Positions 9,454-26,100 of a DNA stretch of 64,000 nucleotides are shown in pieces. The notes under the pieces are model-generated. The model made no database searches and was not told the origin of the DNA. It saw only the letters and a program-made list of their open reading frames with translations. The stretch's first letter is position 1. Every line of letters starts with the position of its first letter. Origin of the DNA: Deinococcales bacterium (GTDB taxonomy: Bacteria > Deinococcota > Deinococci > Deinococcales > JAAFIG01); NCBI GenBank assembly GCA_013298595.1, contig JAAFIG010000020.1, forward strand, positions 1-64,000, in the 5' to 3' direction. Made by a program: the position numbers and the translations under genes.

Positions 9454-11313
9454 TTAACGTCCTGCGCCACGTTCCATAGAGACAAACCATACAGGTGTGG
9501 CAAGGCTGGCATCAAAGTTGTAACGCCAATCCTTACCTGCACTGGCTCGAGTTCCGCCAACATCAAAAACCTGTCCATCTCGGTTAATACTTACAAATCC
9601 ATTGCTCGAGAATCCTGTTAAGCGTTGGTCATAGCTGCTGTTATCAAACAAAGCTGTGCTATCACGGCGGACTTGGAATTTCGATAACCAACTTGGCACA
9701 TTGATGTTCAAAGTAATTTGATCGCAAGAAATGGTTAATGCCAAACCTTGTCTTGGCGCAGCACTGGCGGCTTTTGGCATACAAGCACTGGGCGTTGGTG
9801 GCATTGCGCCCATCACAATCGGCTCGAGGTTGGCTTTAACTGTACAATTTTGCAAATCGTATTCGGCGGTTTTGGCAATACTCATGATGGCACTCGAGGC
9901 ACTGTAAACAATGTTAATCAGTTGCAATTGCGCCCAGTAACGGTATGCCTTATCTGAAATTCGTGCCGCTGCCGAAAAACCATTGCGGTAAGAAACTGGG
10001 TATGCTGCTCGTATCAAACGGTCTTGTTGCTCGAGATTTTGGGCTGCACTTTGACAAGCTTCTGGATTATCACTAGGGTAACGGTAGGCTTTTTTGAGTT
10101 CATCAAAACGTTGCTTTTCTGTTTGGCTAAACAATGCACCGCTCGGACCAGAATCAGCCACATCCAAGACCTCAACCAAGGTTTTTTCGAGCCACCAATC
10201 ACGTAATTCGCTAATAAGCGGTACCTTCTTCATTTGCTCGAGTTGCAAACGACTGGAACGCCGAGCTGGAGACAAGAATTGATTAGAAAACTCTGGACTT
10301 GTCACCAATTTGCCATTAAACGAGGCTTGGACTAGCGGCACAGATTCAGGAATTGGCGAGCTGATATCTGACGTTAAGAATTTCTGCTCGAGATCACGCA
10401 TTTGGTTTTGGTTCGCAGCAGAAAAATCGTTGCGCCACCATGCCTTATTTTGCCACTCGAGGGCTTCTTGGCAACGGTTTTGACTTTGCATTCCTATGGC
10501 AATTGCAAGGTTCATGCGCGGTTCGGACAAATTAGGATTGGCTGTCACCGCTAAACGCAGCACTTTTTCGGCTTCGGCATACCGTTGCAAACGCAACAAA
10601 GCATGACCTTTATTGGCATTGAGCATACCCGCCTCGAGTTTCCCACCAATTTTTTCTGCCCCTGCAATCAGCACCAGCGCTTCACGGTTCAAACCAAAAT
10701 AAATAGCAAGCGCAGTTAAATTCACTAAATGGGCTGCATTTTTTGGCTCGAGTTTGGCAGCCCGTAGCAACAAACCAAAACTCGCCGCTGGTTTGCCGTA
10801 CCACAACGCCACCAGTGCCGTCCGAGCCGCTAAACCAGCACTGCCAGCCTCGGCACTTTTCTCGAGGGCAGGAAGGCTGCCAGAGCCAACTTGCAGGCTT
10901 AAATCTTTGCGTAACTTTGCTAAGGTTTGCTCGAGATTCAGTGCTTTAGGCGGCTCAGGGGCTTTAGGTGCATTCGCCACCACATCCCGCAATTGCTTCA
11001 AACCCGCCTCGAGACTTGGACGGGCTGGATCATCTGGTTTCATGGTTTTTAATTCTGCCTCGAGCGATGCAATTTGTTCTTGTAACTGCGCGGTCAAGGC
11101 AGGCATTTGTTGTAACACACCTGTTGGATTACCTTGCATATCGGTGGAATCCGAATTGTTCATCCCTGCTAATTCGAGCTTCGGACACTCAGGATTCCCT
11201 TGTGTTAAATGATAATTTCGCCGCCCATCGGAAACCGCTGTCCACTGCTGGGACTGCGCCAAAATTGGTGTAATAACACCTAAAGCCAGCAGCGCAATAA
11301 CAATTTTTTTCAT
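9454..11313 (-). CDS. Secreted TPR-repeat protein
   Basis: A 619-aa exported protein with a Sec signal peptide (MKKIVIALLALGVITPILAQ). Residues about 75-120 form a coiled coil (LTAQLQEQIASLEAELKTM). Tetratricopeptide-like repeats follow at about 150-310 (GHALLRLQRYAEAEKVLRLA; ANPNLSEPRMNLAIAI). The C-terminal third is not recognised and contains several cysteines. It starts 10 bp after the stop of the modular secreted protein upstream, has a clear AAAGGAG site, and so is the second gene of the operon driven by the heptamer promoter at 12915-12950. Function is unknown; protein interaction at the cell surface is the likely role of the TPRs. Confidence 0.75.
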   Translation of the reverse strand: MKKIVIALLALGVITPILAQSQQWTAVSDGRRNYHLTQGNPECPKLELAGMNNSDSTDMQGNPTGVLQQMPALTAQLQEQIASLEAELKTMKPDDPARPSLEAGLKQLRDVVANAPKAPEPPKALNLEQTLAKLRKDLSLQVGSGSLPALEKSAEAGSAGLAARTALVALWYGKPAASFGLLLRAAKLEPKNAAHLVNLTALAIYFGLNREALVLIAGAEKIGGKLEAGMLNANKGHALLRLQRYAEAEKVLRLAVTANPNLSEPRMNLAIAIGMQSQNRCQEALEWQNKAWWRNDFSAANQNQMRDLEQKFLTSDISSPIPESVPLVQASFNGKLVTSPEFSNQFLSPARRSSRLQLEQMKKVPLISELRDWWLEKTLVEVLDVADSGPSGALFSQTEKQRFDELKKAYRYPSDNPEACQSAAQNLEQQDRLIRAAYPVSYRNGFSAAARISDKAYRYWAQLQLINIVYSASSAIMSIAKTAEYDLQNCTVKANLEPIVMGAMPPTPSACMPKAASAAPRQGLALTISCDQITLNINVPSWLSKFQVRRDSTALFDNSSYDQRLTGFSSNGFVSINRDGQVFDVGGTRASAGKDWRYNFDASLATPVWFVSMERGAGR

Positions 11314-11323
11314 GATTTCTCCT

Positions 11324-12898
11324 TTACTCGAGGTTTACACTTACGGTCAAAGAATCTGGTGTGATGAACGTAACAGTCTGCGTTTTCGCGGGTTTCTGCT
11401 GATTGCTATTGTTGAAAACATCCAAGAAAGTCCAAAATCGCCCTGTGGCAGTAACAATTTCAAGTGTCATTTTGTAGGTGCCAAGTTTTAAGCCCTTTAA
11501 CCTAAATTCAGTGACAGATTTTTGCATTGGCACGCTAAAGGTTTGCGCTTCGCCCTTTGAACCATCTACCAATGCTACAGGTTCTAAACGCATTTCCAAA
11601 GTGTAATTATCTGGAATGCTGGGATACCGATCGAACCCATAAGTGACAAAACGAATTTCGCTTTTGCGGGTATCGAAATTAAAATTCTGCACCGCACCAT
11701 CAGCACCAATCACTTCGTCGATTGCATCAAAATAATAACTATACGTCTTACCCGCAAAAGCTCCTTCGGCATTAATTCCAACATAAGAACCCAACACACC
11801 CTTAACATCAAACCGATAAAACCCTTTGGCATCGGTAAAAGTCGTTTTAACTTGCCCTCGAGACACGGTGCTGTACAAAATCACTTTGTAATTGGTAAGC
11901 GGACGACCACAAAAACCGTAAACATAACCTTTGTAAAACCCAACTTCTGCGTTTAAAGCAGGCAGTTTTGTTACTGGACAATTAGCAGTTGGAACAACAG
12001 GAATTTTACATTCCCAGTAGATATTGGTAATGCAAGAAAGCGCTGTAACAGCCCCTGTGCTCGAGGCAACTGGTGCAGTCGGTGCGACAGGTTTATTGAC
12101 CACAGGCAGTGTTAAACGGATCAGCGCATCAAAACTCGAGTCGCCTTTTTCAAGTTGTAAACTGATATTTGCAAGCGGTGGCGTTGCTAATGCGAGTTGA
12201 TTATTGACTCGAAATGGTGCGACTTCATCGGCGGCACTGAGATCGCTATCTTTATCAAGATCACGCCAAGCAATCAGCACATACGGAATTTTCTCGAGAC
12301 CACCAAGACTAAATCGCCCAGCCGCATCAATGTTGCCAGCTTTAGAACGAGCTTGCACATACTTACCATTTTCGTAGACAGCCGCAAAAATAACTGCACC
12401 GTTCAAACTCGAGCCAGCCAATGGTTTAACCATTCCAGAAAAGGCTAAACCACTCGAGGTAAGGGCTGGGGCTTGAGGTTGGTCGGCTTGGTCAAGCAGC
12501 GCGTCAAAATCGCCAGTAAATAAGACTAATTTCAGATCTATATTTTGCGCGGGAGGCACAACTTCGCTGGGTTTGCCATTTTTTTGATACACACCCAGTT
12601 CATCGCCAGAATCTACTTCTTGGCTGTTGTTTAAATCCCGCCAAGCCAGCATCAAATAATCCTTAGCTGCTAACCCAGCCACAGAATACTTGACACTCGA
12701 GCCGCTGCCTTGCACCTGAACCGCTTTGGTATTGGCTTCATCGCAAGAATCGTTAGCAATCTGACAAGCCACCACAAATAAGCCCTGCAAACTCGAGCCA
12801 GCTCGAGCAAAAACCGTACCAGAAATCGTTAAATTACTCTGTGCACTCGAGATTGTCAGCCCTACAGCAGCGATGAGAACCAAAACCAATTTTTTCAT
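11324..12898 (-). CDS. Secreted modular protein with repeated DSCD/GDELG domains
   Basis: A 524-aa exported protein. The signal peptide is MKKLVLVLIAAVGLTISSAQ. Two similar beta-sandwich modules follow (about residues 22-115 and 130-230), each with a GTVFARAGSSLQG-like opening and an Asp-rich loop (RDLNNSQEVDSGDELGVY; RDLDKDSDLSAADEV) that looks suited to Ca2+ binding. The C-terminal part has a carboxypeptidase-regulatory-like domain (YKVILYSTVSRGQVKTTFTD). The same module recurs in the proteins at 13618 and 15793. The ATG at 12898 follows AAGGAGG; the longer upstream frame runs through the promoter repeats and is not coding. Confidence 0.72.
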   Translation of the reverse strand: MKKLVLVLIAAVGLTISSAQSNLTISGTVFARAGSSLQGLFVVACQIANDSCDEANTKAVQVQGSGSSVKYSVAGLAAKDYLMLAWRDLNNSQEVDSGDELGVYQKNGKPSEVVPPAQNIDLKLVLFTGDFDALLDQADQPQAPALTSSGLAFSGMVKPLAGSSLNGAVIFAAVYENGKYVQARSKAGNIDAAGRFSLGGLEKIPYVLIAWRDLDKDSDLSAADEVAPFRVNNQLALATPPLANISLQLEKGDSSFDALIRLTLPVVNKPVAPTAPVASSTGAVTALSCITNIYWECKIPVVPTANCPVTKLPALNAEVGFYKGYVYGFCGRPLTNYKVILYSTVSRGQVKTTFTDAKGFYRFDVKGVLGSYVGINAEGAFAGKTYSYYFDAIDEVIGADGAVQNFNFDTRKSEIRFVTYGFDRYPSIPDNYTLEMRLEPVALVDGSKGEAQTFSVPMQKSVTEFRLKGLKLGTYKMTLEIVTATGRFWTFLDVFNNSNQQKPAKTQTVTFITPDSLTVSVNLE

Positions 12899-12914: not shown

Positions 12915-12950
12915 AGTGTACTTTTCCTAGCGTGACTGGAGCGTGACTGG
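12915..12950 (-). promoter_or_regulatory. Heptamer-repeat promoter A (SARP-like box)
   Basis: Read on the minus strand: CCAGTCA, CGCT, CCAGTCA, 12 nt, TACACT. The -10 is at 12915-12920 and the heptamers at 12933-12939 and 12944-12950, period 11 bp. The ATG is 16 nt beyond the -10. There is no -35 hexamer; the heptamers occupy its place. Confidence 0.75.
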
Positions 12951-13062
12951 CATCCGAAGCACTGGAGCGTGACTGGCATCCGAAGCACTGGAAGCGTGGC
13001 TGGCATCCGAAGCACTGGAAGCGTGGCTGGCATCCGTATCCTTCGAGCGTGACTGCTGTTCG
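12930..13062 (-). repeat. 26/27-bp tandem array extending promoter A
   Basis: Upstream of the promoter-proximal heptamers, the unit CCAGTCACGCTCCAGTGCTT plus CGGATG (minus strand) is repeated about four times, with two copies carrying CCAGCCACGCTT variants. Shorter versions stand at 16552-16639 and 18320-18370. The repeats end at the terminator of the upstream gene. Confidence 0.85.
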
Positions 13063-13073
13063 AGTTCTCGAGC

Positions 13074-13105
13074 AATAAAAAACCTCCTGCTTCATCAGGA
13101 GGTTT
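13074..13105 (-). terminator. Intrinsic terminator of the PEGA lipoprotein gene
   Basis: On the minus strand AAACCTCCTG / CAGGAGGTTT forms a 10-bp stem with a 6-nt loop, followed by TTTTATT. It lies 17 bp after the stop codon at 13122. Confidence 0.88.
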
Positions 13106-13121
13106 GCAAACTCGAGAGAAT

Positions 13122-13568
13122 TTATTGACCTGTTTGACCAATAATAAAACCCTTATTTTTAAGAATTTTTGCTGCCCAAGCAGGAATTGGTTCGCTACTC
13201 ATGGCTTGCGGACTCAGCACCACACTAACATTGGTGGTATCAAGTTCAAACCACGCACCAGTAGCAGCATCAATCACCAAAGGAAACAAACCACCCAGTA
13301 CGTCTAAGACAATCCAAAGTGCGCCAACATGATTGGTTAGAATATAGGTTTGATTAGCAAAACCTGGTTTTTGAAAAGTAATGTTATAAGAACGATTGGT
13401 TTTCAACCGAGCTTGTGTTGTTGTTTGCCCAATTAAATTGCCATCAATGAACACATTGGCTGCGGTTGGATTAGAAGTAAATGTCACAGTGGCAGAATCG
13501 CCTTTGAATAACAAAGCGCAACTCGAGAGGGAAAAGGCTGCGAGTAATGCAATGAAGATGGTTTTCAT
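13122..13568 (-). CDS. PEGA-domain lipoprotein
   Basis: A 148-aa lipoprotein. The signal ends in the lipobox SLSSC. A PEGA-type domain follows, recognised by SNPTAANVFIDGNLIGQTTT and the basic KTNRSYNITFQKPGF turn. A hydrophobic stretch (GALWIVLDVLGGLFPLVI) may be a second membrane-associated segment. PEGA domains bind surface components or proteins; no enzyme function is expected. The ATG at 13568 follows an AAGGAAA site; the gene lies 49 bp behind the subtilase and is probably co-transcribed with it. Confidence 0.78.
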   Translation of the reverse strand: MKTIFIALLAAFSLSSCALLFKGDSATVTFTSNPTAANVFIDGNLIGQTTTQARLKTNRSYNITFQKPGFANQTYILTNHVGALWIVLDVLGGLFPLVIDAATGAWFELDTTNVSVVLSPQAMSSEPIPAWAAKILKNKGFIIGQTGQ

Positions 13569-13617
13569 GGTGTTTCCTTTCTGAAAGAGGGCGGTCATTT
13601 GTAATAGCAGTAAAGTT

Positions 13618-15693
13618 CTATTTTGCGCGATTACGGTATTTGAAATAGGCATTGAAATGCGTTTCAGTTGGCATCGAAGCGAGCTGCGTAATATTTTGCA
13701 ATAAACTCATACGAATACCAATATTACTGGCAGGAGGGCGAACAAAACCAACTGTGTAAACGCCAAGAAAATCGCCACTGTTAATATCGTTATTACCATC
13801 CACATCTTTACCTGCAAATACAATATAATTGCCATCTGACAAGTTAGAAATCGAATAATTGGCTTGTAAACCTGTACCATTCACCGTAATCTCGACTGAT
13901 TTATTAACATCGCAAGAATCTGTGGCTGCCACATAAAAACAAGCCAGTACACTCGAGCCATTGATACTGACTGCTTGGGTTGGTGCAGCGGTAACGGTCA
14001 ACGTTAATGTGGCTGTGCGGGTTAAACCCGCACCTGTGCCTTCAAAAACGATCGAGTATGAATCAGGTGCTACCGTCGCGGGCACATTGACCTGTACGGT
14101 CGAACCTGTCGCGGTTAACGTCACACCGCTGGGTGCTCCGGCAAAAGTAATAGCTACGGTGCTTAAATCAAACCCGCCCACTGCTTCGGCGGTAATGCTG
14201 ATATTGACACTCGAGCCTCGCACTACCCGCAGACTGGTTGGATTGACCCGCAAACTAAAATCTGGGGTTGGTGCATTACCCGGACTCAGGGCTTGCAGCG
14301 CCGCTTGGGCATCTATCAAACCTGCACCACAATCACTCGAGGTTTTTGCAGTGCCAGAACCCGTACATTTAGTCGGTGTTAGTTCCCTTGCAGTACGCTT
14401 TAAGACTTCTAAAGCTCGAGTCAGTGTCAAACTTGGATCACGGCTTTTCATCAAGGCAAGGACACCTGCTACATGTGGGGCTGCCATGCTCGTACCATTC
14501 TCGAAAATAAAATTGAAATTACCAGTTTGGTCATTTTTACCAAGACTTAACACGCCATCAGGTCGGGTATCATTGTTTAAATCTGCACTTACATCGCCAC
14601 CTGGAGCCACGACATCTATGCGCTGACCAAAATTAGAATACGGTGCTCGAGCACCAGCAAAATCGGTTGCACCAACTGTAATCACACCACTGCAACTGGC
14701 AGGTACAAAACTCGAGGCATCTTGATTAGAATTACCCGCTGCTACAACAATAATTTTACCAGCTGAATTCACCTGATCTATGGCTTCTTGATAGGCTGGG
14801 TTTTGTGAACATGCACCAGAGCCACCTAAGCTCATATTGATAATTGCGGCTGGGTTAGGGTTATTTGGCATGCCAGACACAGGTAAACCCGCTGCCCAAA
14901 CCATACCGTCCACAATATCTACAATGGTACCGCCACCTACACCTAAAACCCGTATAGGTAAAATCTTTGCTCCCCAACTGATACCAGCTATACCAATACT
15001 GTTATTGGTAGCAGCAGCAATTGTTCCAGCTACATGCGAACCATGATATGAACTTTGTCCACTTGGATTATCACCGGGATCGTTGGCATCGGCATCGCGT
15101 CCATCACCATCTCGAGAATTTCGTGCATTGCTGACAAAATCAAAGCCCCCAATAATCTTTCCAGCAAAATCAGGATGGGTTTTTAAGATACCCGTATCAA
15201 TTACTGCCACTGTCACAGGGTTAGAATCGCCTTTTTCGATATCCCATGCTTGCGGTAAGTTAATCGCAGGATAATGCCATTGAAAATTAAGAAATTCATC
15301 GTTCGACGTAGCTGCTTTTTGCAAAATATAATTTGGTTGCGCCCAAACAACATCTACTCGAGACGATAATTGCTCGGCAAGCACTCGTGCATCGCTGTTG
15401 GTGGTTGCGCGGAACAGACGCGTGTGCTCGAGTCCGACAGCTCGAGCCAGTGTTAAATTCGCACCTGCCACCGACAAATTAATGCTGTTCTGGGCAGTAA
15501 TACCGCTTTTGAATTTGACAATCACTTCGTTTTCGACAAATGGTGCTGTGGCACTGTTGGTGCTTGTGGCAAGGGTGATGGTACCACTAATTGTTTTATT
15601 ACTGGGTGGCGGTGGTGGGTTGGGGGTGCTACCGCCACATGCCACAGCAGCCATGAGTAACGAACAAGCAAAAACGTTTCTTAGAATATGCAC
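13618..15693 (-). CDS. Subtilisin-like serine protease (S8), lipoprotein with C-terminal modules
   Basis: A 691-aa subtilase. The lipobox is AAVAC, followed by a proline-rich spacer and a propeptide-like region with VIVKFKSG. The catalytic triad is in VAVIDTGI (Asp), SYHGSHVAGTIAA (His) and ENGTSMAAPHVAG (Ser), with the oxyanion Asn in VVAAGNSN. After the protease domain comes an Ig-like domain and then a DSCD/GDFLGVY module like those in the 11324 and 15793 proteins. It should act on proteins outside the cell. The start is GTG at 15693, after AAAGGAGG. No heptamer promoter is seen here. Confidence 0.93.
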   Translation of the reverse strand: MHILRNVFACSLLMAAVACGGSTPNPPPPPSNKTISGTITLATSTNSATAPFVENEVIVKFKSGITAQNSINLSVAGANLTLARAVGLEHTRLFRATTNSDARVLAEQLSSRVDVVWAQPNYILQKAATSNDEFLNFQWHYPAINLPQAWDIEKGDSNPVTVAVIDTGILKTHPDFAGKIIGGFDFVSNARNSRDGDGRDADANDPGDNPSGQSSYHGSHVAGTIAAATNNSIGIAGISWGAKILPIRVLGVGGGTIVDIVDGMVWAAGLPVSGMPNNPNPAAIINMSLGGSGACSQNPAYQEAIDQVNSAGKIIVVAAGNSNQDASSFVPASCSGVITVGATDFAGARAPYSNFGQRIDVVAPGGDVSADLNNDTRPDGVLSLGKNDQTGNFNFIFENGTSMAAPHVAGVLALMKSRDPSLTLTRALEVLKRTARELTPTKCTGSGTAKTSSDCGAGLIDAQAALQALSPGNAPTPDFSLRVNPTSLRVVRGSSVNISITAEAVGGFDLSTVAITFAGAPSGVTLTATGSTVQVNVPATVAPDSYSIVFEGTGAGLTRTATLTLTVTAAPTQAVSINGSSVLACFYVAATDSCDVNKSVEITVNGTGLQANYSISNLSDGNYIVFAGKDVDGNNDINSGDFLGVYTVGFVRPPASNIGIRMSLLQNITQLASMPTETHFNAYFKYRNRAK

Positions 15694-15792
15694 AATACCT
15701 CCTTTGGCTCGAGCCTAAAAATAGGATACACGGTCTGGTGTTACAACAGCGTCTCAGTCGGAAATGATGCGTTGGTAACGATAAATATCAAA

Positions 15793-16212
15793 TCAGTTTT
15801 GCTCGAGAATAGAAGATTGCAATTGCGAAGGAGCAATGATTACTTTGAGATTGGTATTTGGTGGTGAAATGCTAATAAACTTTTCTTGGGCATCAATTAA
15901 ACCACCTATTGCCTGCTCATTTTGATCTACCAAAACAATAAAATACTTACCAGGTTTAACATCTGTAATACTAAAAGAAACTTTTGTATCACCAGCTTTT
16001 GCGTTGATTGGAACACGTTTGGTATTGGCATTGGTTGGATCACAGCTATCATTGACCACAAAACAAGCACCAACGTCGAACCTAACGGCTGTATTAAATG
16101 CACTACCAGCAGGTAACTCGAGCGCACCTGAAAAGACATTAGGAGCACCAGCACCCGGACAAGCCGTGAGCACAGCCGTCAAGAAAGCCAAACCAAGAAA
16201 CACTTTTTTCAT
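15793..16212 (-). CDS. Small lipoprotein with a DSCD module
   Basis: A 139-aa lipoprotein (lipobox VLTAC) that consists of a single copy of the module shared with the subtilase C-terminus and the 11324 protein: GACFVVNDSCDPTN, then SFSITDVKPGKYFIVLVD. The Asp-rich loop is degenerate here (DQNEQAIGG). The ATG at 16212 is preceded by TGGAGG. Function unknown; it may be a stand-alone surface domain. No heptamer promoter was found upstream. Confidence 0.7.
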   Translation of the reverse strand: MKKVFLGLAFLTAVLTACPGAGAPNVFSGALELPAGSAFNTAVRFDVGACFVVNDSCDPTNANTKRVPINAKAGDTKVSFSITDVKPGKYFIVLVDQNEQAIGGLIDAQEKFISISPPNTNLKVIIAPSQLQSSILEQN

Positions 16213-16325
16213 AAAAACCTCCAAAAGCCACAAGGCTCGAGAACAAAACTACGTTGTTCCTCGAGCAACGGGGGAATGACTCGAGGAGTGGAGAAAAGGA
16301 GAGAAAGGCAAGTAAAATAGGTAAT

Positions 16326-16520
16326 TTATTCGATTCTGACAGGGTTATCCATCCAACTTAAATCAAATGGTTGATGAACATCCGTAATCACTTTCAGTAA
16401 AGCCTCAGGATTCGAGAAATGCTTTTTCTCGAGTGTTACCGAATCTGTCAGCGTAGCTCGCCATTGTTCGTTATCTGTCCAGACGCGCAAAATATACATT
16501 TGCTGAGTTTGCTGAGTCAT
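16326..16520 (-). CDS. Small protein with WRATLTD motif
   Basis: A 64-aa protein with an AGGAGG ribosome site and its own heptamer promoter, so I consider it real despite its size. It has a strand (YILRVWTDNEQWRATLTDS) followed by a helix (NPEALLKVITDV). This general pattern, (V/I)W....WR..L.D........F..L..LL..., recalls small hypothetical proteins of Chloroflexi and other phyla. That resemblance is from memory and untested. Confidence 0.6.
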   Translation of the reverse strand: MTQQTQQMYILRVWTDNEQWRATLTDSVTLEKKHFSNPEALLKVITDVHQPFDLSWMDNPVRIE

Positions 16521-16538
16521 GCCTGCCTCCTGTTAAGA

Positions 16539-16574
16539 ACTGTACAAAATGGTGCGTGACTGGAGCGTGACTGG
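16539..16574 (-). promoter_or_regulatory. Heptamer-repeat promoter B (SARP-like box)
   Basis: Minus strand: CCAGTCA at 16568-16574, CGCT, CCAGTCA at 16557-16563, 12 nt, TACAGT at 16539-16544. It drives the small gene starting at 16520. More diverged repeat units continue to 16639. Confidence 0.75.
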
Positions 16575-16659
16575 CATCCGAGCCACTGGAGCGTGAAGCC
16601 ATCCGAACATCGGGAGCGTGACTGGCATCCGAGCGATGGTTTAACTCGAGACAGCCCGA

Positions 16660-18258
16660 TCAGCACTGCGGACGGAGTTGTGCAGGGCTTTCTGGAACAG
16701 CAGGGGAGAACTGTGGTGATGGTGTGGCAGTGGGCATTGCAGGTGGTGACGATTGCCCACCGAGCAAACTTTTTTCGACCAGTGGAAAAAACCAAGTTGC
16801 ATAATAGTAAGAAACCCGTTTTCGAGTATTGACCGTACCAGCATATGGCGGGGTGAACGCAATTTTTAATTGACCAGCACCGCGTAAAAACTTTTGGTTT
16901 TTTGGATGTAAATCATCACCTGTCACTGTAACAAGCGCAAAACCATCAGCAATCTTATCGATATTCACAGGTGGCTCTGGGGTTTCACCAGGACATGGAA
17001 CATGGTTACTCGAGAATTTAAATGGTCCTGTGAATTTAAAAGCTTGACCAAAAGCATGTTTGGTCAGACTCGGTTTTAGTTCAGCATTGACATAAAGAGT
17101 TTGATCTTTGTCTGGAACAAGTTCGCCACGGTAATCATAGCTTTCGGTAAAAACTTCGGTAGCATTCTGACAAGGGCAACTCACTCTGGTGGTTTTATCG
17201 TAAGTCAAATAAACAATGCCTTCTTCTTTAATTGTTTTTAACGTCCCATGGGTCAGAAATTCTGGATAGGTATTACCCAGATACGTTGTTGTTGGAAAGT
17301 ACTCCGATGCCTTAGCAGTTTCGTATTGTCCAGACACAGATATGCCATATGTTTCAGAGTATTTTGCCCCAGAAATTTTTGAGTAATCATTGGCAACAAT
17401 GTTGACCCAACCCTTGGAATCCATAATTTGCACCGAGCTTTGATACGTTTGACTATTTGCCACTGCTTTAACCGTAACAATACTCGGACTTGGTTTTACG
17501 CTAGGAGCTGTGTACGTGGCTTTGGTCGCACTCGAGCTTTCCACTCGCCCAAGACTCGATGAACCACCAACGGTGTTATTAACCGACCAACTTTGCACCG
17601 CAGAAACACTGACACTGGCAAGATTCGAGGCATCGGTAGTGATTTGCGACAAGGCAAAATTGACACTATCACCAATTCGTACCGAAGCACGTCTAGGAAG
17701 CAAAGCAAACTTTGCCGCCAAAGCATAATCGCCTTGTTTTGTCACAGGAATTTTAATCACACGCAATTGCGATAATGGTCGAGGCAAAATCCGATTCGCT
17801 CGAGACACAACACTTGGCACAGCCGAAGCTGGCACGAGTGTAGGAGCAACTGCTTGCCAAGAACCATCCGCGTTTTGTTGACCAAAAACCAAATCCTCGA
17901 GATTCACTTCTTCTGGGTCAACGTTTAAGTATAAATCCAGTGGTGCAACCATGACCGCTGTTGGGGGATCAAAAGTAACCCGATAGGCTGTGTTAGAAAC
18001 AGCATTTGGCATGGTGTTTTCTATTGTAGAAAAAATAATTTTCACGCCAGTAACTGTGCCAAAAGGAGCACTCGAGCCAAATAAATAGCTTTTGTCAGCC
18101 TCACCGATAACTGTACCTTGGGGTGTCACCGCACTAGGCAAGGGTGTATCCAAAACAGGCACGTCGAAAGGTTGGTCAATAATGGGTGGTTTAACTCCAC
18201 CTGTACCACCACAAGCCAATAAACTTAGTAATAAACCAAAAACCAAGATTTGTTTCAT
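16660..18258 (-). CDS. Lipoprotein of unknown function, paralogue of the 18434 protein
   Basis: A 532-aa lipoprotein (lipobox LLAC at residues 13-16) with a proline-rich spacer. Three segments are shared with the neighbouring 18434 protein: an early TVIG strand, a central region with a two-helix motif before VRIGDSVNFAL, and an Ig-like segment with WSVNNTV and ATYTAP. The C-terminal 60 residues are rich in Pro, Ser and Ala, and the middle has CPCQ. No enzyme motif is seen. Driven by heptamer promoter C. Start fixed by the signal peptide and by GAGGA upstream. Confidence 0.7.
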   Translation of the reverse strand: MKQILVFGLLLSLLACGGTGGVKPPIIDQPFDVPVLDTPLPSAVTPQGTVIGEADKSYLFGSSAPFGTVTGVKIIFSTIENTMPNAVSNTAYRVTFDPPTAVMVAPLDLYLNVDPEEVNLEDLVFGQQNADGSWQAVAPTLVPASAVPSVVSRANRILPRPLSQLRVIKIPVTKQGDYALAAKFALLPRRASVRIGDSVNFALSQITTDASNLASVSVSAVQSWSVNNTVGGSSSLGRVESSSATKATYTAPSVKPSPSIVTVKAVANSQTYQSSVQIMDSKGWVNIVANDYSKISGAKYSETYGISVSGQYETAKASEYFPTTTYLGNTYPEFLTHGTLKTIKEEGIVYLTYDKTTRVSCPCQNATEVFTESYDYRGELVPDKDQTLYVNAELKPSLTKHAFGQAFKFTGPFKFSSNHVPCPGETPEPPVNIDKIADGFALVTVTGDDLHPKNQKFLRGAGQLKIAFTPPYAGTVNTRKRVSYYYATWFFPLVEKSLLGGQSSPPAMPTATPSPQFSPAVPESPAQLRPQC

Positions 18259-18303
18259 ATATCCTCCTCGAGAAAACCAGCCTTAGCAGGTCTGAACAGG
18301 TAA

Positions 18304-18339
18304 ACCGTACAAAAATCACCGTGACTGGAGCGTGACTGG
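18304..18339 (-). promoter_or_regulatory. Heptamer-repeat promoter C (SARP-like box)
   Basis: Minus strand: CCAGTCA at 18333-18339, CGCT, CCAGTCA at 18322-18328, 12 nt, TACGGT at 18304-18309. One more 26-bp unit continues to about 18365. The leader to the ATG at 18258 is about 40 nt. Confidence 0.75.
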
Positions 18340-18391
18340 CATCCGAGCAACTGGAGCGTGACTGGGAAACTCGAGCCAAAAGCTGAAAATA

Positions 18392-18425
18392 GCTTTTCTC
18401 GAGCTTGTCATGAACTCGAGAAAAG
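18392..18425 (-). terminator. Hairpin behind the 18434 lipoprotein gene
   Basis: CTTTTCTCGAG / CTCGAGAAAAG forms an 11-bp inverted repeat with a 12-nt loop, 9 bp after the stop. A second smaller stem (AAAAGCT / AGCTTTT) follows at 18378-18398. Both arms contain CTCGAG. Confidence 0.6.
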
Positions 18426-18433
18426 CGCATAGA

Positions 18434-19945
18434 TTAGTTAGTAGTGAAATTCCATGTTGCTGTCGTGACCCAAGTAGCAAATATTGTGCCATTGCTGCCA
18501 AGGTCTTCCCCTGTTTGTGTGGCACTACCCGAGATTGTGTCTGTGTTGATGTAAGAAAGTGGTGTATTAATCTGAGTACCGCCAAGTGTGCTTTGAATTT
18601 GTACATTGCTACCAACATTGCACTTCATCTCACCAAGTCCAGATATTGGGAACCGAAAAATATATGTTTTGTTAACTTCATCAAAAATTAGTGTTGCGTT
18701 TTCTGTTCCGCCTGTATTGGTAATTGGCGAGGCACTGCAAGTTCTACTCCCAACCTTAAAACTCGCATCTGACGTGATAGCGTTTGTACTCCCGTCGCTG
18801 TAATTAGGAACTCCATCTGTACGAATATTCCTAAAATCAAAAGTAGCCGTACCCTCACGAACTTGCACGCCGCCTTTGGCATAGGTATAAGTGGATTTAA
18901 AAGTAACTGTGCCACTTAACCTCTTTTTTCCATCTGTTAAGATTACAGACCCAATAATGCGGACTTTTTTGCTTGGATTTGCGTTATTGACACTGGTAAA
19001 CACCACCGTATCGATTCTCCCAACTGCCGAAGTCGCTGTTGGAGCGGTATAAATGGCATTGGCAACACCAGAAGCAGCAATACTACCCAGTCCAGCCCCT
19101 GATACACTCCAATTGCGGGTAAAACCAGATTTTGAATTTGTAAAAGGATACGGCTTAACAATGATCGCTGGCGTAAGTGGTACAAGTTCGTCATCATTAT
19201 CTATTGGTTTGGTAACTGGTGGAGTCGGTGAAGTGCTGACTGGTGTAAGCGGCACAAGTTCATCATCGTCATCGGTAACAGCTGGTTTAACCAGACCCGA
19301 CCGAGCCGACTGGCTTTTCTCCGAAATTGCAACATTTGCATAAGCCGTAAACGTTAAAGTCTTACCGATTTGCAACCGAGATACCGATGGTTTCAAATAA
19401 AAGCGTTCAATCCGAATAATATCCATTGGGTATAACTTATTGCCTTGTAATTGCAAACCTCTCGAGTAAGTGGTTGTTAAACTTGGCGGCACAGGCGAAA
19501 TTCGTGCCGACATTGTACGGTTCGCCGTATCCACACTGACTTTCCGACTGACGACCCAAGCACCATTTGGCAATCTGACAGCAATACCATAATTTTCAGG
19601 AGCAGCTAAATCTGTGGGGTACGAAAATTGTATTGTAATTGGTTGCGTCCAAACATCACCCGTTAAACGCAAACCCTGACCTGAACCATTCACGGTGTCG
19701 TTAATAGCTTGGACACTCAGACTCGAGCCATCTGGCATTGCCCCAGCGGGCACAACAACTTTTGCACCAGCACTAAGCACATCGGCACTACCACCAGTGG
19801 CTGTGATAGGAAGGGTTTGTACTGCACCAATGACAGTAGCCTCGGGAGTAATAAGTGTCTCGAGCCGTGCTGGTGGGATTGGTGCACCACCTCCGCACGC
19901 AACCAGAGCAAGGAACAGGGATGCAACGGGTATCAAAGTTTTCAT
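18434..19945 (-). CDS. Lipoprotein of unknown function, paralogue of the 16660 protein
   Basis: A 503-aa lipoprotein (lipobox ALVAC). The N-terminal half contains a ZU5-like stretch (KVVVPAGAMPDGSSLSVQAI), and the middle carries an internal duplication of DDELVPLTP separated by a Pro/Thr linker. An Ig-like segment (NWSVSGAGLGSIAA, then AIYTAP) aligns with the 16660 protein. The C-terminal domain ends in TATWNFTTN, which could be a beta-sandwich. No catalytic motif is seen. The ATG at 19945 follows AAAGGAG; heptamer promoter D lies 30 bp upstream. Confidence 0.7.
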   Translation of the reverse strand: MKTLIPVASLFLALVACGGGAPIPPARLETLITPEATVIGAVQTLPITATGGSADVLSAGAKVVVPAGAMPDGSSLSVQAINDTVNGSGQGLRLTGDVWTQPITIQFSYPTDLAAPENYGIAVRLPNGAWVVSRKVSVDTANRTMSARISPVPPSLTTTYSRGLQLQGNKLYPMDIIRIERFYLKPSVSRLQIGKTLTFTAYANVAISEKSQSARSGLVKPAVTDDDDELVPLTPVSTSPTPPVTKPIDNDDELVPLTPAIIVKPYPFTNSKSGFTRNWSVSGAGLGSIAASGVANAIYTAPTATSAVGRIDTVVFTSVNNANPSKKVRIIGSVILTDGKKRLSGTVTFKSTYTYAKGGVQVREGTATFDFRNIRTDGVPNYSDGSTNAITSDASFKVGSRTCSASPITNTGGTENATLIFDEVNKTYIFRFPISGLGEMKCNVGSNVQIQSTLGGTQINTPLSYINTDTISGSATQTGEDLGSNGTIFATWVTTATWNFTTN

Positions 19946-19974
19946 GGATTTGTCTCCTTTTGTAACTGCTGGGA

Positions 19975-20010
19975 AGCGTACAAAAAACAGGATGACTGGA
20001 GCGTGACTGG
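19975..20010 (-). promoter_or_regulatory. Heptamer-repeat promoter D (SARP-like box)
   Basis: Minus strand: CCAGTCA at 20004-20010, CGCT, CCAGTCA at 19993-19999, 12 nt, TACGCT at 19975-19980. Promoter D and promoter E are nearly identical over about 50 bp, including the stretch between heptamer and -10. Confidence 0.78.
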
Positions 20011-20046
20011 GAAACTCGAGCCATTGCAAAACAGTAGTGAATTTTC

Positions 20047-20084
20047 AAAAGCTCGAGAGGAGAACGTGCCTCTCGAGCTTTTTT
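20047..20084. terminator. Hairpin behind the delta-60 lipoprotein gene
   Basis: AAAAGCTCGAGAGG / CCTCTCGAGCTTTT, a 14-bp perfect stem with an 8-nt loop, 17 bp after the stop at 20101. A CTCGAG lies in each arm. Confidence 0.8.
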
Positions 20085-20100
20085 GATGCTAAGACTAGAA

Positions 20101-21891
20101 TTAGTATTTTACTCGAACATTGAAGTAGTTATATTGTGTGAAATCAGCATTCGCATTGACTCCATGAATTGTCATGACACTTCCGTTGATTGTAGCATGC
20201 CAAGCAATCAGGTTCACGTCTGAACCTGACCTTGGGATGGTTGCACGTCCTGCTGTACCAAAAGTTAAATCTGGCAGACCGTTGGGTTTGAATCGCTGCA
20301 TAGCAGCATCATTTGGGGCTTCAATATCACCAGTACCCAGGAGTACAAGTGAACCATCAGCAGCATAAGTACCACCGAAAGTACCTGTCCTAGAATTATT
20401 TAAATTTGTAATGAAGGAGGTGTTGGAATTTGTGACGAAGTAGATTTTATTATTGTATTCAAGCACTTCTACAACAAAATCAGGACCATTAACAAATTCC
20501 TGTATTCCTGTAACTGGATCAATTCGGATTCCATTAGAAGATCTATTGTACACCAAGACCGAACCATCACTGAGGACTTTGCCTGCTGCGTTGACTCGAG
20601 TGGATGAAACGTTGACTTGGATGCTAGATAACAGCGTACCGTTCGTACCAAACGCTGTATCAGGAGTTCCATCAACATTTAATTTTTGAAACATTGATGA
20701 AGAACCTGTCACAGTGCTACCTGCTAATATGAAGTTTCCTTCTCCAATAATCAGGATTTTTGCGTTCGGTAGTAAGACTGCACTAAAAAAGTTTTTGCTA
20801 TTACTTGGGTCATCTATTACCAATTTGCCATTTGTGCCAAAACTCAGTACAGGTGCTCCTGCTGAATTTATGCGCCAGAGAGTCAGTTTGAAAAATCCTG
20901 AAACCTCATTGCGGCTACTAATTAAATAATCACCATTGCTATTTCGTTGCATTGAAGTAACAGATTTTCCCGATGTAACAATAGTGGTTGTACCACCTGT
21001 ACCAAAAGTTGTATCAAGGGTGGCATCTGCATTCCAACGGGTTAAGGTCATGGTCTGGGTAACTGCTGGCAAAGCAGTTTCGTCTGTAAATGTGCCAAAG
21101 GCGACGAATTTACCATCTGGTTGTAGTATTGTCGAAAGCCCAGTATTACTGGCAATTGAATTGGTGCTGCGATTCATTGCGCCTATTACAGTACCCGGTT
21201 TTACAATGACACTTAGTGTTGCGCTCCAAGTCTCTTCAAATACTCCACTCGAGGTTGTTAGTGTTAATGGCACGCTGGCAGTGGTTTCGGGGGCTGTTAA
21301 ACTGGCGGTCAGAACCAAGTCGCCACTGGTGGTATTGGCTGGTATGGTCACACCACTCGAGTTTACACCTGTTGGTAAGCCTGTGAGTGTAACCGTAACG
21401 GGGTCGCTGTATCCTTGTGAACGACCAAGTAAAATTTTGGTTGTAATGCTTGTACCTGCTGCGATTACTAAATTAGAATCAAGTATCGTTGTTGTAAAAG
21501 GCAGCACCTGTCCTACCGTGTTTTTTGAAACCAAACTAGCACCACTCGAGGCTTGGATACCAATGGTGTTGGTTGTGCCAGGAGCGGCGGCTGTAAGAAT
21601 TTGGAGTGTGCCGCTGGTATCTGGGCTTCTAATAACAATTGGTGAGGCTGAAAATCCAAGAGTGCCTGTGTTTAATCCGACAGTAATATCGCCTGTGAAA
21701 CCTGCTAAACGTTGAACGGTAACTGGTAACGAAGCGCTGCTGTTGGGTCGGAAGACCAATTTGGATAAGGCAACATTTAAGTCAAACATTGCCGCTGGGG
21801 GCGGGGGTGGTGGTTTGACCTCTGGGGTTGGACATGCAACCAATGCTATTGCTAATGCGAGTAAGCCCGAAAAAACTTGGTACTTTTTCAT
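20101..21891 (-). CDS. Lipoprotein with Ig-like and delta-60 repeat domains
   Basis: A 596-aa lipoprotein (lipobox ALVAC) with a poly-proline spacer. Residues about 45-235 form two or three Ig-like beta domains (TVTLTGLPTGVNSSGVTIP). Residues about 240-590 are delta-60 repeats, recognised by the recurring LDTTFGTGGTTT, PDTAFGTNGTL and PDLTFGTAGRA, each about 60 residues apart, which should build a beta-propeller-like fold. It is a surface protein without visible enzyme motif. The ATG at 21891 follows AGGAGGAATT; heptamer promoter E lies 31 bp upstream. Confidence 0.83.
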   Translation of the reverse strand: MKKYQVFSGLLALAIALVACPTPEVKPPPPPPAAMFDLNVALSKLVFRPNSSASLPVTVQRLAGFTGDITVGLNTGTLGFSASPIVIRSPDTSGTLQILTAAAPGTTNTIGIQASSGASLVSKNTVGQVLPFTTTILDSNLVIAAGTSITTKILLGRSQGYSDPVTVTLTGLPTGVNSSGVTIPANTTSGDLVLTASLTAPETTASVPLTLTTSSGVFEETWSATLSVIVKPGTVIGAMNRSTNSIASNTGLSTILQPDGKFVAFGTFTDETALPAVTQTMTLTRWNADATLDTTFGTGGTTTIVTSGKSVTSMQRNSNGDYLISSRNEVSGFFKLTLWRINSAGAPVLSFGTNGKLVIDDPSNSKNFFSAVLLPNAKILIIGEGNFILAGSTVTGSSSMFQKLNVDGTPDTAFGTNGTLLSSIQVNVSSTRVNAAGKVLSDGSVLVYNRSSNGIRIDPVTGIQEFVNGPDFVVEVLEYNNKIYFVTNSNTSFITNLNNSRTGTFGGTYAADGSLVLLGTGDIEAPNDAAMQRFKPNGLPDLTFGTAGRATIPRSGSDVNLIAWHATINGSVMTIHGVNANADFTQYNYFNVRVKY

Positions 21892-21921
21892 AATTCCTCC
21901 TGTTGTTTGTAACTGTTGGGA

Positions 21922-21957
21922 AGCGTACAAAAAACAGGATGACTGGAGCGTGACTGG
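21922..21957 (-). promoter_or_regulatory. Heptamer-repeat promoter E (SARP-like box)
   Basis: Minus strand: CCAGTCA at 21951-21957, CGCT, CCAGTCA at 21940-21946, 12 nt, TACGCT at 21922-21927. It is the last member of the series; no further copy is seen upstream. Confidence 0.78.
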
Positions 21958-22314: not shown

Positions 22315-23157
22315 ATGTCTTACACGAATAACAACGGTGTATTTAAAAATTTGCTCGGAATTTTAGACGCTAACGAATTACAATTGGCGGAAACTGCCTA
22401 TGTAGAGAATCGTTTGTTCGATTTACGAATCCGAAATTCACCAATGGGGAATTTTGATTTAGACCATTTGAAAGTCATTCATCATTTTTTGTTCCAAGAT
22501 GTGTACGAATGGGCTGGAAAAACTCGAGCTGAACAAACCATCATTGCTGGGCAATCATTCATGCCGTTACCTGTGCTGATAAAAGGAAGTTCAGTATTTT
22601 TATTGGCAGATCAAATTAAACCAGTTTTAGAACAGGCTTTTGAAGATTTGAAGTAGCAAAATTACTTTCGTGGTATGACTAGAGCAGATTTTTCTGTTTC
22701 GGCTGGAAATTTGTTGTGTACGCTTAATCATGCCCATGCTTTCAGAGAAGGTAACGGCAGAACCCAACGAGAATTTATTTCGCAATTGGCAACTTTTGCC
22801 AATCATCCGCTTGATTGGACTGTGGTTAGCCAAGAGCGCATGATAAGTGCAAGTATTGATAGTGTTAATGGCAATACCAGTCCTATGCAGCGCTTAATCG
22901 AGGAAATCAGTGACCCGCAAAAAACCACCGTGCTTGGTGACGCAATCGCATTCCTAGAAAGTCATGATATCAATTGGAATCAGCGTTATTTGGCAACGAC
23001 CATCGTAGGACTCGAGTACGAGGGTATATTGGTTAGTCATTCGGCAAAGCATTTTATTCTCATGACTACAGAACAGCAAATTATTATTGGGTTTCGTTCG
23101 GATTTACCAATGCCTCGAGTGTCAAATGCAAAGATTTATTTTAAGGCAACACGGTAA
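22315..23157 (+). pseudogene. fic: Fic-domain toxin (AMPylase) interrupted by an in-frame TAG
   Basis: The frame from 22315 to 23157 encodes a complete Fic protein of about 280 aa, except for a TAG codon at 22654-22656. Before the stop lie the N-terminal helices (FLFQDVYEWAGKTRAEQTII). Directly after it the same frame continues with QNYFRGMTRADFS and the active-site motif HAFREGNGRTQR, a near match to HPFx(D/E)GNGRxxR with Ala for Pro. Catalytic His and the GNGR loop are intact. A CAG or AAG codon mutated to TAG explains the break. The 3' part has an ATG at 22675 that could restart. The gene's 3' end overlaps the convergent regulator gene by 17 bp. Confidence 0.85.
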
Positions 23158-26100
23158 GCCCTTGATTTCTGGCTTCCTCGAGAATGGCGACATTGGTTAG
23201 GTTTTTACTAAGAAATGTTGTTTGGTACTCGAGGTCTAAGGTTTTTTGCTGGCTCTGAATTAACTCGAGCACAGTTTTTAAGGTTGTTAATGCAGTCGTA
23301 TCTTTTGTAGCGGTCTGTGCTTGGTAATGCGTCCATAAAATTTCTGCTATTGGAATACTCGAGCGAATTTCATCAGGGCTGTTTAGGGTTGCGGTTGTTA
23401 ACTTGAGGGCTTTTTGGGCTTGTCCTAGGCTCAGTAAGGCTTGGGCTAATTTGATATTGGCAGTGAGAATAATGCTGTTCATATTGAAGGGCTTGACTGT
23501 TTTTAACAGATTTTTGGCTGTTTCTTTGGCATCTGTGGGTGCTTGTAGGCTGCATAGGACAAGGTCAATGGTGCTGATGTCTTTGATCGAAGTGGTTTTT
23601 TGGCGTAACTGCATTAATTCAGCTTCAATCACATCGGTGGGTTGGTTTAAGCTTTTTTTGGTTATTGCTAATTCGCATAAATACATGTTGTAAAATATCG
23701 GTATTTCTTGTGCTTTTGGTAAAAAATCCTCGAGAATCAAAAGGGCTTGCTCTGGTTGTCCTAAACGTCTTAGAACAGCAGCGACTCGAGATTGTAACAA
23801 GGCAATTCGTTGTGGTACGGATTCTTCTGCAATTTTTAAGCCTTGGCGAGCGTGTCCCAAGGCAGATTGGTATTGCCCTAACACAACTTCGACACTGCTC
23901 AGGGTAGCAAGGGTGCCAGTACCGCCAAGTAACTTATTTGAAAACTCTTCGAGTATGTCTTTGGCTTGTAAGAAATACTGTTGGCTTTCGAGTAATTTGC
24001 CTTGATTGTATAAATTGATTCCTAAGTTCGATAATGCAGAAAATACGTGTTCACGTAACTCGAGTTGTTGCACCATCAGCAAGGATTCGCGGTGGAATTG
24101 CTCGGCTTTTTGGTGCATTCCTAGTTGATCGTTGATCGCAGCGGTGTTGCCCATAGAAACAGCTAATTGTTCTTTGGAAAGTCGTACTTCTATGGGTTGT
24201 AGATGCTGGTTTTTTTCGTATGCTTGTTTGCCAAGAGCTAATGAAGCTTCAAAGTGAATTGCTGCTTCTTTAATTTTATTTTGGTAATACAAAAACGAAC
24301 CCAAACTGGTTTCTATATCTTGCTGGACATCTAAGTCTTGGGCTACTATGGCGTGTTCTAAACCACGAAAGGCAGATTTTTCTGCAGCGGGTAGATCACC
24401 TTGAGCTGCAAATAAGTGGGCTTGTAAACCAAAAGCTCGAGCGCGCATATCTTCGGTATTGGCGTACAGGAAAAAAGTATCCACCAGTTTTTTCATGGAG
24501 TCTGTGCGTTGCAACGGCAGGTAGTGTTTGGCTGCCCACATTAGCGCGGTGCAGCCTTCTCGAGCATCGCCAAGGCGAAATTGGGCAGCAGCTATGGTTT
24601 CGTATGTTTGCCCTGCTTCGATAAATTTAAGCAATGAAGTAAAATAAATAGCGGCTTTCCAGAGGAACGGTATGGCTTTGCTATCTTCTTGTCCTTGCAG
24701 ATAATGCTCGGCAACTCGAATAGCACTGACATCACCAAGGTTTGCTGCTTCCAGAATTTGGGCAATTTGCCGATGTAAGTACCGTTGTAAACCTGCCCCA
24801 ATCGAGGTTTTGACTGTTTCAAAAATCAAGTCATGAACAAAGCGTTCTTGCTGCATCACTTGCGCTTGCTCGAGTTGCTGCATGGCATTGCTCAGGTCAA
24901 AAGGATTTTTCTCGAGAATCATCGCAGCACGATCCAACGTAAAATCTTGATTCATCACAGCCGCAATTTGGGTTAAGCGAGTGGCTTCTGGGCTAAGACT
25001 ACCAAGTCGCCCAGCAATCAATTGCTTAATTCGTGGCGCATCTTTTATATCAGCTCCAGTCTCGAGGGTGTGGCGTAGTGCCTCGAGCAAGTACAGTGGG
25101 TTGCCATTGGTATAGGTTTGTAAATCGGTGCTCGAGAAATCTTTGGCTAAAGCTAAGCTAGAAAGCAGTTCGGTGGTTTCGGAAGTCGAAAGTAGTTGTA
25201 ATTCGATTTTTATGGCTAAACCTGCGGTGATCGTCTGCTCGAGTATTTCGTTGGCTTCTACTCCAAGTTCATTTGGACGATAAGCAAGTATGGTGCGGAT
25301 ACCAGTCGGGTTGCCCCAATGGTTCTGGAAAACATGTTGAAACGCTGCAAAACTAGCTGTATCCATAAATTGTAAATCGTCTAAAGCAATGTGTTTCATA
25401 CCAGCCGCCAAGGCTAACTGACAGACTTCGCTTTTTGCTTGGTAGAAACGCAGAACATCGCTATCGTTACTCAGAGGCGCAAGCACATCCTGATCTGCGC
25501 GTAAACTCGGCAAAATACGGCTTAACTCGAGGCGCACCCAATCGGGTAAGATCACAGTGTACTTCTCGAGCATTTGCTGGTACGTGCGAGCACTGGTCGC
25601 ATATGATACCGTTGCATCACCTGGACGACCTGAGAAAATACTCGAGCTGGCTTTACTGGCGAGGAAATCCTCGAGCAAACGGCTTTTGCCGATGCCAGCT
25701 TCACCTGCTAGTAAAATTGCCTGACCAGCCGCCCAAGCGTTTTCCATTTGTTGCCAAGCAGCTTCACGTCCGACAAGTTTTTGTGGGCGTAACACCGACA
25801 ATGGTAATTCAACTCGAGTCTGTTGCACTGGTACTAAAGCCTGACTGCTCCTAATCTCTTCGAGTAAGGCAAGTGTGGTCGCTGATGGACGAACACCCAA
25901 TTCGTTTTGCAGCGTTTGCTCGAGTGTGCCAAATGTTTGAATGGCAGCCCCTCGATCTCCAAGTAAGTACTGCAAACGCATGACAGTTCGATACGAACTT
26001 TCGGCAACTTTATCGCGCTTGATGCTTTCGAGTGCCCAAAAAAGTGCTTCGCTAAACTGCTGATTTTGCTCGAGACGAGCAGCTTCTAAAACACATGCCT

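Follow-up and report, generated by a model that had tools for sequence, protein, structure and literature searches.

The first 64,000 nt of contig JAAFIG010000020.1 of a Deinococcales bacterium (GenBank assembly GCA_013298595.1), referred to below as the window, contain five minus-strand elements in which two direct repeats with an 11-bp period precede a TAnnnT hexamer at a fixed distance. From comparison of their sequences, we consider it very likely that these elements are SARP-type operator-promoters served by one or both of two neighbouring paralogous BTAD regulators, denoted A and B, and that they represent one of many parallel sets. The predicted regulon would comprise seven promoters, two of them at unlinked genes and the others serving lipoproteins, secreted proteins, and a conserved 64-aa protein. 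A regulon of SARP type had been proposed in an earlier note on this DNA, and the proposal is supported by period-11 sites at other BTAD genes, by co-variation of the sites with the regulator clade, and by the AfsR-like fold of a regulator model.

The five elements, described in that note as CCAGTCA-N4-CCAGTCA-N12-TAC on the minus strand, were all recovered at the same coordinates and with the same spacing. Site 1 (12915..12950) reads CAGTCACGCT-C-CAGTCACGCT-N8-TACACT, site 2 (16539..16574) CAGTCACGCT-C-CAGTCACGCA-N8-TACAGT, and site 3 (18304..18339) CAGTCACGCT-C-CAGTCACGGT-N8-TACGGT. Sites 4 (19975..20010) and 5 (21922..21957) both read CAGTCACGCT-C-CAGTCATCCT-N8-TACGCT and have 54 nt in common at 98% identity. 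The invariant stretch exceeds the two heptamers, as the linker CGCT is constant too and the 18-mer CCAGTCACGCTCCAGTCA is found in all five.

In the whole genome (4.58 Mb, 68 contigs), exact copies of the repeat pair number seven, the five in the window and two on contig C45, while its reversed control has none. Each of the seven is oriented towards, and lies upstream of, a gene, and each is followed by N12 and a TAnnnT hexamer (TACACT, TACAGT, TACGGT, TACGCT, TACGCT, TAGTGT, and TAAGGT). The proposed -10 consensus TAC(A/G)(C/G)T thus holds for the window sites and fails for the two C45 sites, which begin with TAG or TAA. Allowing up to three mismatches to the 36-bp pattern yielded seven matches with none, no match with one or two, and 15 with three, compared to 11 matches for the reversed control; by a first-order Markov estimate, about 3e-4 perfect sites per genome are expected by chance. 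The genome-wide scan suggested earlier therefore gives seven exact sites, all in front of genes, with no scatter away from promoters.

Comparison with sites of other BTAD regulators defines the repeat unit as a 10-mer (CAGTCACGCT in the window), most units sharing the core ACGC. The end of this unit lies 8 nt before TAnnnT, which matches the published SARP spacing. The 12-nt gap that had been contrasted with about 8 for SARPs is correct when counted from CCAGTCA, and arose because the repeat was ended after that heptamer; the spacing itself is not unusual. The heptamer register with its 12-nt gap was dropped in favour of the 10-mer register with 8 nt, because the BTAD clades align in the latter. 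As in SARP operators, the repeats are direct with an 11-bp period (control periods are near background), and the 3' repeat overlaps the -35 region about 8 bp from a -10 box that is itself predicted from sequence. Placing this box at -12 to -7 puts the half-sites of the window at -41 to -32 and -30 to -21. The AfsR repeats are two 11-bp units at -40 to -19, over the -35 element, and the 3' repeat of SARP sites is 8 bp from the -10 (PMC10936776). The half-site T at -38 and -27 falls at the positions of the AfsR contacts T-38 and T-27, an agreement that depends on the predicted -10 and may be a coincidence.

If the window sites are SARP operators, paralogous regulators of the same genome would be expected to have repeats of their own, placed in the same way. 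In a first scan, covering 20-kb stretches at the remaining BTAD genes of the genome, we found the repeats TTGTTGCG (C3), TTTTGACGGT (C11), TTGAGACGCT (C33), ATTTCAGACC (C13, far end), and TTGGAACG (C21). They have the same 11-bp period and position and precede genes of secreted proteins and lipoproteins; in particular, TTGTTGCG is found upstream of several secreted-protein genes adjoining the C3 BTAD gene. We then fixed the register, requiring a 10-mer repeat with period P that ends 8 nt before TAnnnT and at most 200 nt before an open reading frame with a Shine-Dalgarno-like sequence. The DNA examined contained 26 such sites at period 11 versus 0-5 at other periods. At period 11 there were 18 sites in the BTAD neighbourhoods of this genome outside the window (0-5 at other periods), six in the window, three in 398 kb of its non-BTAD DNA, and nine in the BTAD neighbourhoods of G003, a member of the same family (0-2 at other periods). 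Repeats of the GCATTAC/GTAATGC type, with an 11-bp period and without the ACGC core, were also observed in this genome (L076, L081); on C9 they precede a BTAD gene as well as a gene of universal-stress-like type, and on C8 two genes.

The assignment of the sites to a particular regulator comes from their co-variation with BTAD clades. A tree was built from 66 BTAD proteins of four genomes. In it, A and B group with a BTAD protein of contig C60 of G001 (support 99/96) and then with four proteins of G003 (89/83), and the third BTAD protein of the window is placed elsewhere. At the G001 locus of this clade, GTGTCATGCTCCAGTCACGCA precedes a homologue of the window 64-aa protein. The G003 loci contain CAGTGACGCTCCAGTGACGCT (L097) and GCGT(T/C)ACGCTCCAGTAACGC, twice in each of L091 and L099. 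In G093, a genome from another family, two BTAD genes of the clade adjoin CAGTCATCCTCCAGTCATCCT, CAGTCACGCTCCAGTCACGCC, and a third such site; the CATCCT variant seen there is that of window sites 4 and 5. Additional loci were supplied by a search of named genomes with a clade profile (a scan using B alone gave no matches). Sites of the CAGTCAT type, N8 before TAnnnT, were found in Meiothermus hypogaeus, M. granaticius, a Meiothermus metagenome-assembled genome, and both of two Meiothermus SKYG110 loci; most of them precede genes for lipoproteins or secreted proteins. Where the recognition helix differs, as in proteins from Calidithermus and Trueperaceae, the accompanying sites are others, GGCTAACGC and AGGnAACGC.

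In total, window-type sites are present at 11 of 15 loci of the window clade, at one of 73 other BTAD loci, and at none of 20 non-BTAD stretches (each contig was counted once, L195 being identical to L125 and L198 to L097). With related loci and criteria chosen after the data had been looked at, the Fisher p-value of 5e-10 should be taken as a guide only. We further compared 32 BTAD proteins with sites, using five variable bases per half-site and leaving out the ACGC core: protein pairs scoring at least 400 share 5.54 of 10 variable positions, versus 3.50 in 5000 permutations (maximum 4.44). Site sequences common to a clade across genera are GGCTACGC, GAGCAACGC, TTGGAACG, TTCAGACC, and ATAACGC. 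The expectation that the motif would co-occur with BTAD genes in related genomes was thus borne out for window-type sites and not for the exact heptamer pair, as CCAGTCA-N4-CCAGTCA was detected in only one of 100 relatives (its variant in G093). This rarity seemed to speak against a SARP regulon until the half-site had been redefined from other BTAD loci. Operator sequence tracks the regulator clade beyond the limits of genera and families, so that the regulon is assigned to A and B and not to the third BTAD protein.

Two other site types were observed in these comparisons. The ATAACGC-type site is conserved with related BTAD proteins (recognition helix RRNLRQELFRLK) upstream of lipoprotein genes in several Thermaceae-like genomes (G077, G095, G037, and G075; L185, L188, L192, and L193), and marks a further candidate regulon. 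In Trueperaceae Ww127 (L206), several AGGnAACGC-type sites occur within 13 kb around one BTAD gene.

The association extends over the order. In 101 genomes of the order, 300 copies of ACGC-N7-ACGC-N9-TAnnnT were counted, versus 31 of the reversed pattern. For 18 genomes the positions of the BTAD genes were available, and there 26 of 119 sites are no more than 5 kb away from one, versus 3.8 expected; outside the family of the window, the numbers are 16 and 2.2. The genomes examined encode from 3 to 27 BTAD regulators, mostly AfsR-like.

These data bear on the possibility that a two-component response regulator of the PhoB/OmpR type binds the repeats and that the BTAD genes are mere neighbours, which we regard as improbable. 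PhoB boxes (CTGTCA repeats) also have an 11-bp period and cover the -35 region, ending about 11 nt before the -10, so that geometry alone cannot separate such boxes from SARP repeats. In Streptomyces, moreover, a single box is the object of competition between PhoP and AfsR (PMC10972967). However, the clustering of sites at BTAD genes throughout the order argues for a BTAD protein, as does the variable part of the sites, which follows the BTAD clade. No response regulator was detected among the proteins scanned, all of them encoded in the window.

Tandem units of 26 bp upstream of sites 1-3, absent from the earlier account, suggest another explanation, in which the element is a dispersed minisatellite-like 26-bp repeat copied into intergenic DNA without regulatory meaning. 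On the minus strand, an array of 26-27-bp units (CCAGTCACGCTCCAGTGCTTCGGATG and variants) lies upstream of site 1 (12951..13063), degenerate 26-bp units upstream of site 2 (16575..16632), and a single further unit upstream of site 3 (18340..18372). Each tandem unit contains one and a half operator repeats. The identity of the 18-bp core in all copies and the 54 nt common to sites 4 and 5 also favour such copying. Nevertheless, all seven copies face a gene at a single exact distance to TAnnnT and have different flanks, no copies were found away from promoters at up to two mismatches (arrays aside), and in other genera and families relatives of the regulators have retained these sites, there in front of other genes, making this explanation very improbable. 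An alternative sigma factor recognizing a long -35 element plus TAnnnT is less probable still: it would agree with the constant spacing and with the conserved sequence at the place of the -35, but not with the direct repeats of 11-bp period, the many versions per genome, or variation by BTAD clade while the sigma-70-like TAnnnT remains unchanged.

Several observations weigh against the assignment to SARP-type regulators. No strict site was found at four of the 15 clade loci (M. rufus L196, G003 L095, L115, and G099 L189); of these, L115 is a 4.4-kb contig, and L189 of G099 bears the variant CGGTAACGC. For about half or more of the BTAD genes, no period-11 site was found nearby. Part of the data had served to tune the repeat criteria, and related genomes do not count as independent. 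The 18-bp core, linker included, is exact in all seven copies, exceeding ordinary operator conservation, and recent copying within the genome is likely to contribute to this invariance. Finally, the 26-bp units upstream of sites 1-3 are unaccounted for by a SARP operator model. As 26 is not a multiple of 11, they would face another side of the DNA.

All three BTAD regulators in the window are encoded on the minus strand. The proposed cognate regulators A (23141..26548) and B (26617..30015) are paralogues that have the AfsR architecture, consisting of a winged helix, BTAD, AAA_16, and TPR. The third regulator (33108..35300) belongs to a different clade and is unassigned to window sites. All three match the Pfam BTAD family, and the OmpR-type winged helix together with BTAD characterizes them as SARPs; in A and B, matches to AAA_16 (NTPase, NOD/STAND-like) and TPR are those of large SARPs. 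A and B are 54-55% identical over the N-terminal 250 residues and have near-identical recognition helices (EATARNNLRQALKRIK and EATARNNLSQTLKRIR). Two paralogues of this clade are also present in G093 and, on separate contigs, in Meiothermus SKYG110.

The genome contains 23 BTAD genes, hence adjacency alone says little about the cognate regulator. Assignment on this basis was rejected, considering also that the third neighbour is of another clade and that no BTAD gene is listed for the contig that carries two of the sites. Of the earlier suggestion that one of the three adjacent BTAD genes encodes the activator, the part concerning A and/or B is upheld by operator-clade co-variation, and the third gene drops out by its place in the tree. 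Autoregulation of the A/B pair would require a site upstream of 30015, and none was seen there.

An AlphaFold2 model of the N-terminal 252 residues of A, built from 15 aligned sequences, has a pLDDT of 90.9 (56 in an earlier model with three sequences). The top Foldseek matches of this model, spanning about 250 residues, are AfsR (8k60/8hvr, E 4e-9, TM 0.71), in both cases a transcription activation complex, and EmbR (2fez). Sequence search of solved structures returned TPR designs alone.

The most similar characterized system is AfsR of Streptomyces coelicolor with its afs box (PMC10936776; 8k60, 8hvr), which has the same order of winged helix, BTAD, NTPase, and TPR, the fold predicted for A, and two 11-bp repeats that overlie the -35, the 3' one lying 8 nt upstream of the -10. 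It differs in the repeat, CGTT(T/C)ATCGNN rather than CAGTCACGCT, in phylum, in its target (afsS rather than surface proteins), and in sequence, with identity of 16-19%; the sites described here are predictions. In the AfsR complex, sigma region 4 is held on two SARP protomers (PMC10936776). By analogy, two AfsR-like protomers would sit side by side on the two direct repeats, covering the -35 region of an otherwise -35-less TAnnnT promoter, and would recruit and hold RNA polymerase with the main sigma factor, transcription starting just after TAnnnT. The effect would be activation, as assumed from AfsR, and the signal would most likely be sensed through the NTPase and TPR parts of one or both paralogues. 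We lean towards a broader picture for the order, in which the BTAD regulators would act as parallel one-protein switches. Each clade would have its own 5-nt code before the shared ACGC core and a private set of surface lipoproteins, frequently joined by a small conserved protein, so that orthogonal SARP circuits would run the cell surface and their protein-DNA recognition code could be read.

Among other SARPs, DnrI and ActII-ORF4 (reviewed in PMC10972967) likewise bind heptameric direct repeats over the -35, often with a 4-nt spacer, but they belong to antibiotic gene clusters, whereas here large SARPs adjoin lipoprotein genes. In the same phylum, a BTAD/SARP domain is present in DnrS of Thermus thermophilus, which is required for activation of denitrification promoters (PMC5748679), and in Deide_19260 of Deinococcus deserti, whose targets were stated to be unstudied (PMC3564903); both have another domain layout (GAF or receiver), and the available parts of these papers report no repeat-type binding site. 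Outside Actinobacteria, deletion of the SARP GSU1771 in Geobacter sulfurreducens affects lipoprotein and cytochrome genes; this protein has a receiver domain, and the accessible portion of the source describes no operator (PMC10599522). In the open-access literature, we found no operator of this kind for SARP/BTAD regulators of this phylum. The type of system is known, and what appears new is that large SARPs form an expanded set whose predicted operators, specific to each clade, belong to surface proteins. SARPs have been known mainly as activators of actinomycete antibiotic clusters, and genome comparison yields predicted operators and probable regulator-operator pairs for many unstudied SARPs of another phylum. 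Such pairs are present in cultured Meiothermus species, which makes the regulator assignment directly testable, and the large number of clades amounts to a natural data set from which the SARP recognition code might be deciphered and orthogonal promoters designed.

All genes behind the window sites are on the minus strand. Site 1 precedes a gene for a secreted protein with a signal peptide and a CarboxypepD_reg domain (11324..12898), probably co-transcribed with a gene 10 nt behind it on the same strand, which encodes a TPR protein with a signal peptide (9454..11313). Behind site 2, the gene of the 64-aa protein (16326..16520), which has a homologue behind the equivalent site in L125/L195, is followed by lipoprotein and S8 peptidase; the S8 peptidase lipoprotein is encoded at 13618..15693. 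Sites 3 and 4 precede genes for lipoproteins with no Pfam match (16660..18258 and 18434..19945), no relative of the former being found in G001-G003, and site 5 a gene for a lipoprotein with a DUF5122 beta-propeller (20101..21891). The C45 sites lie upstream of genes for an RCC1-like lipoprotein and a 65-aa open reading frame. Accordingly, not all targets are surface lipoproteins as had been thought: those starting at 18258, 19945, and 21891 are, the one at 12898 has a signal peptide only, and the 64-aa protein at 16520 has neither.

The latter protein belongs to a family of about 53-70 aa with the pattern YILRVWxxxxxWRASL...FxSPEAL. Throughout the order, its members are encoded next to BTAD genes from different clades, in many cases immediately behind a predicted operator site. 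Besides the window, the family was found at L125/L195, L074, L090, L127, L183, L186, L187, L191, L199, L206, and L207, where one of the AGGnAACGC-type sites of L206 precedes a member. No Pfam or NCBIfam match was obtained among the members scanned.

The palindrome CTCGAG is present in 386 copies in the window, versus 12 expected. Four genomes of the family (G000-G003) have it at a density of 5.9-6.5 per kb, independent of G+C content, and loci from other families (Meiothermus, Calidithermus, and Trueperaceae) at 1.9-4.1 per kb. The cyanobacterial HIP1 is likewise a highly iterated palindrome, but a different word. In 13 open reading frames of the window, 98 of 158 CTCGAG copies are in codon phase 0.

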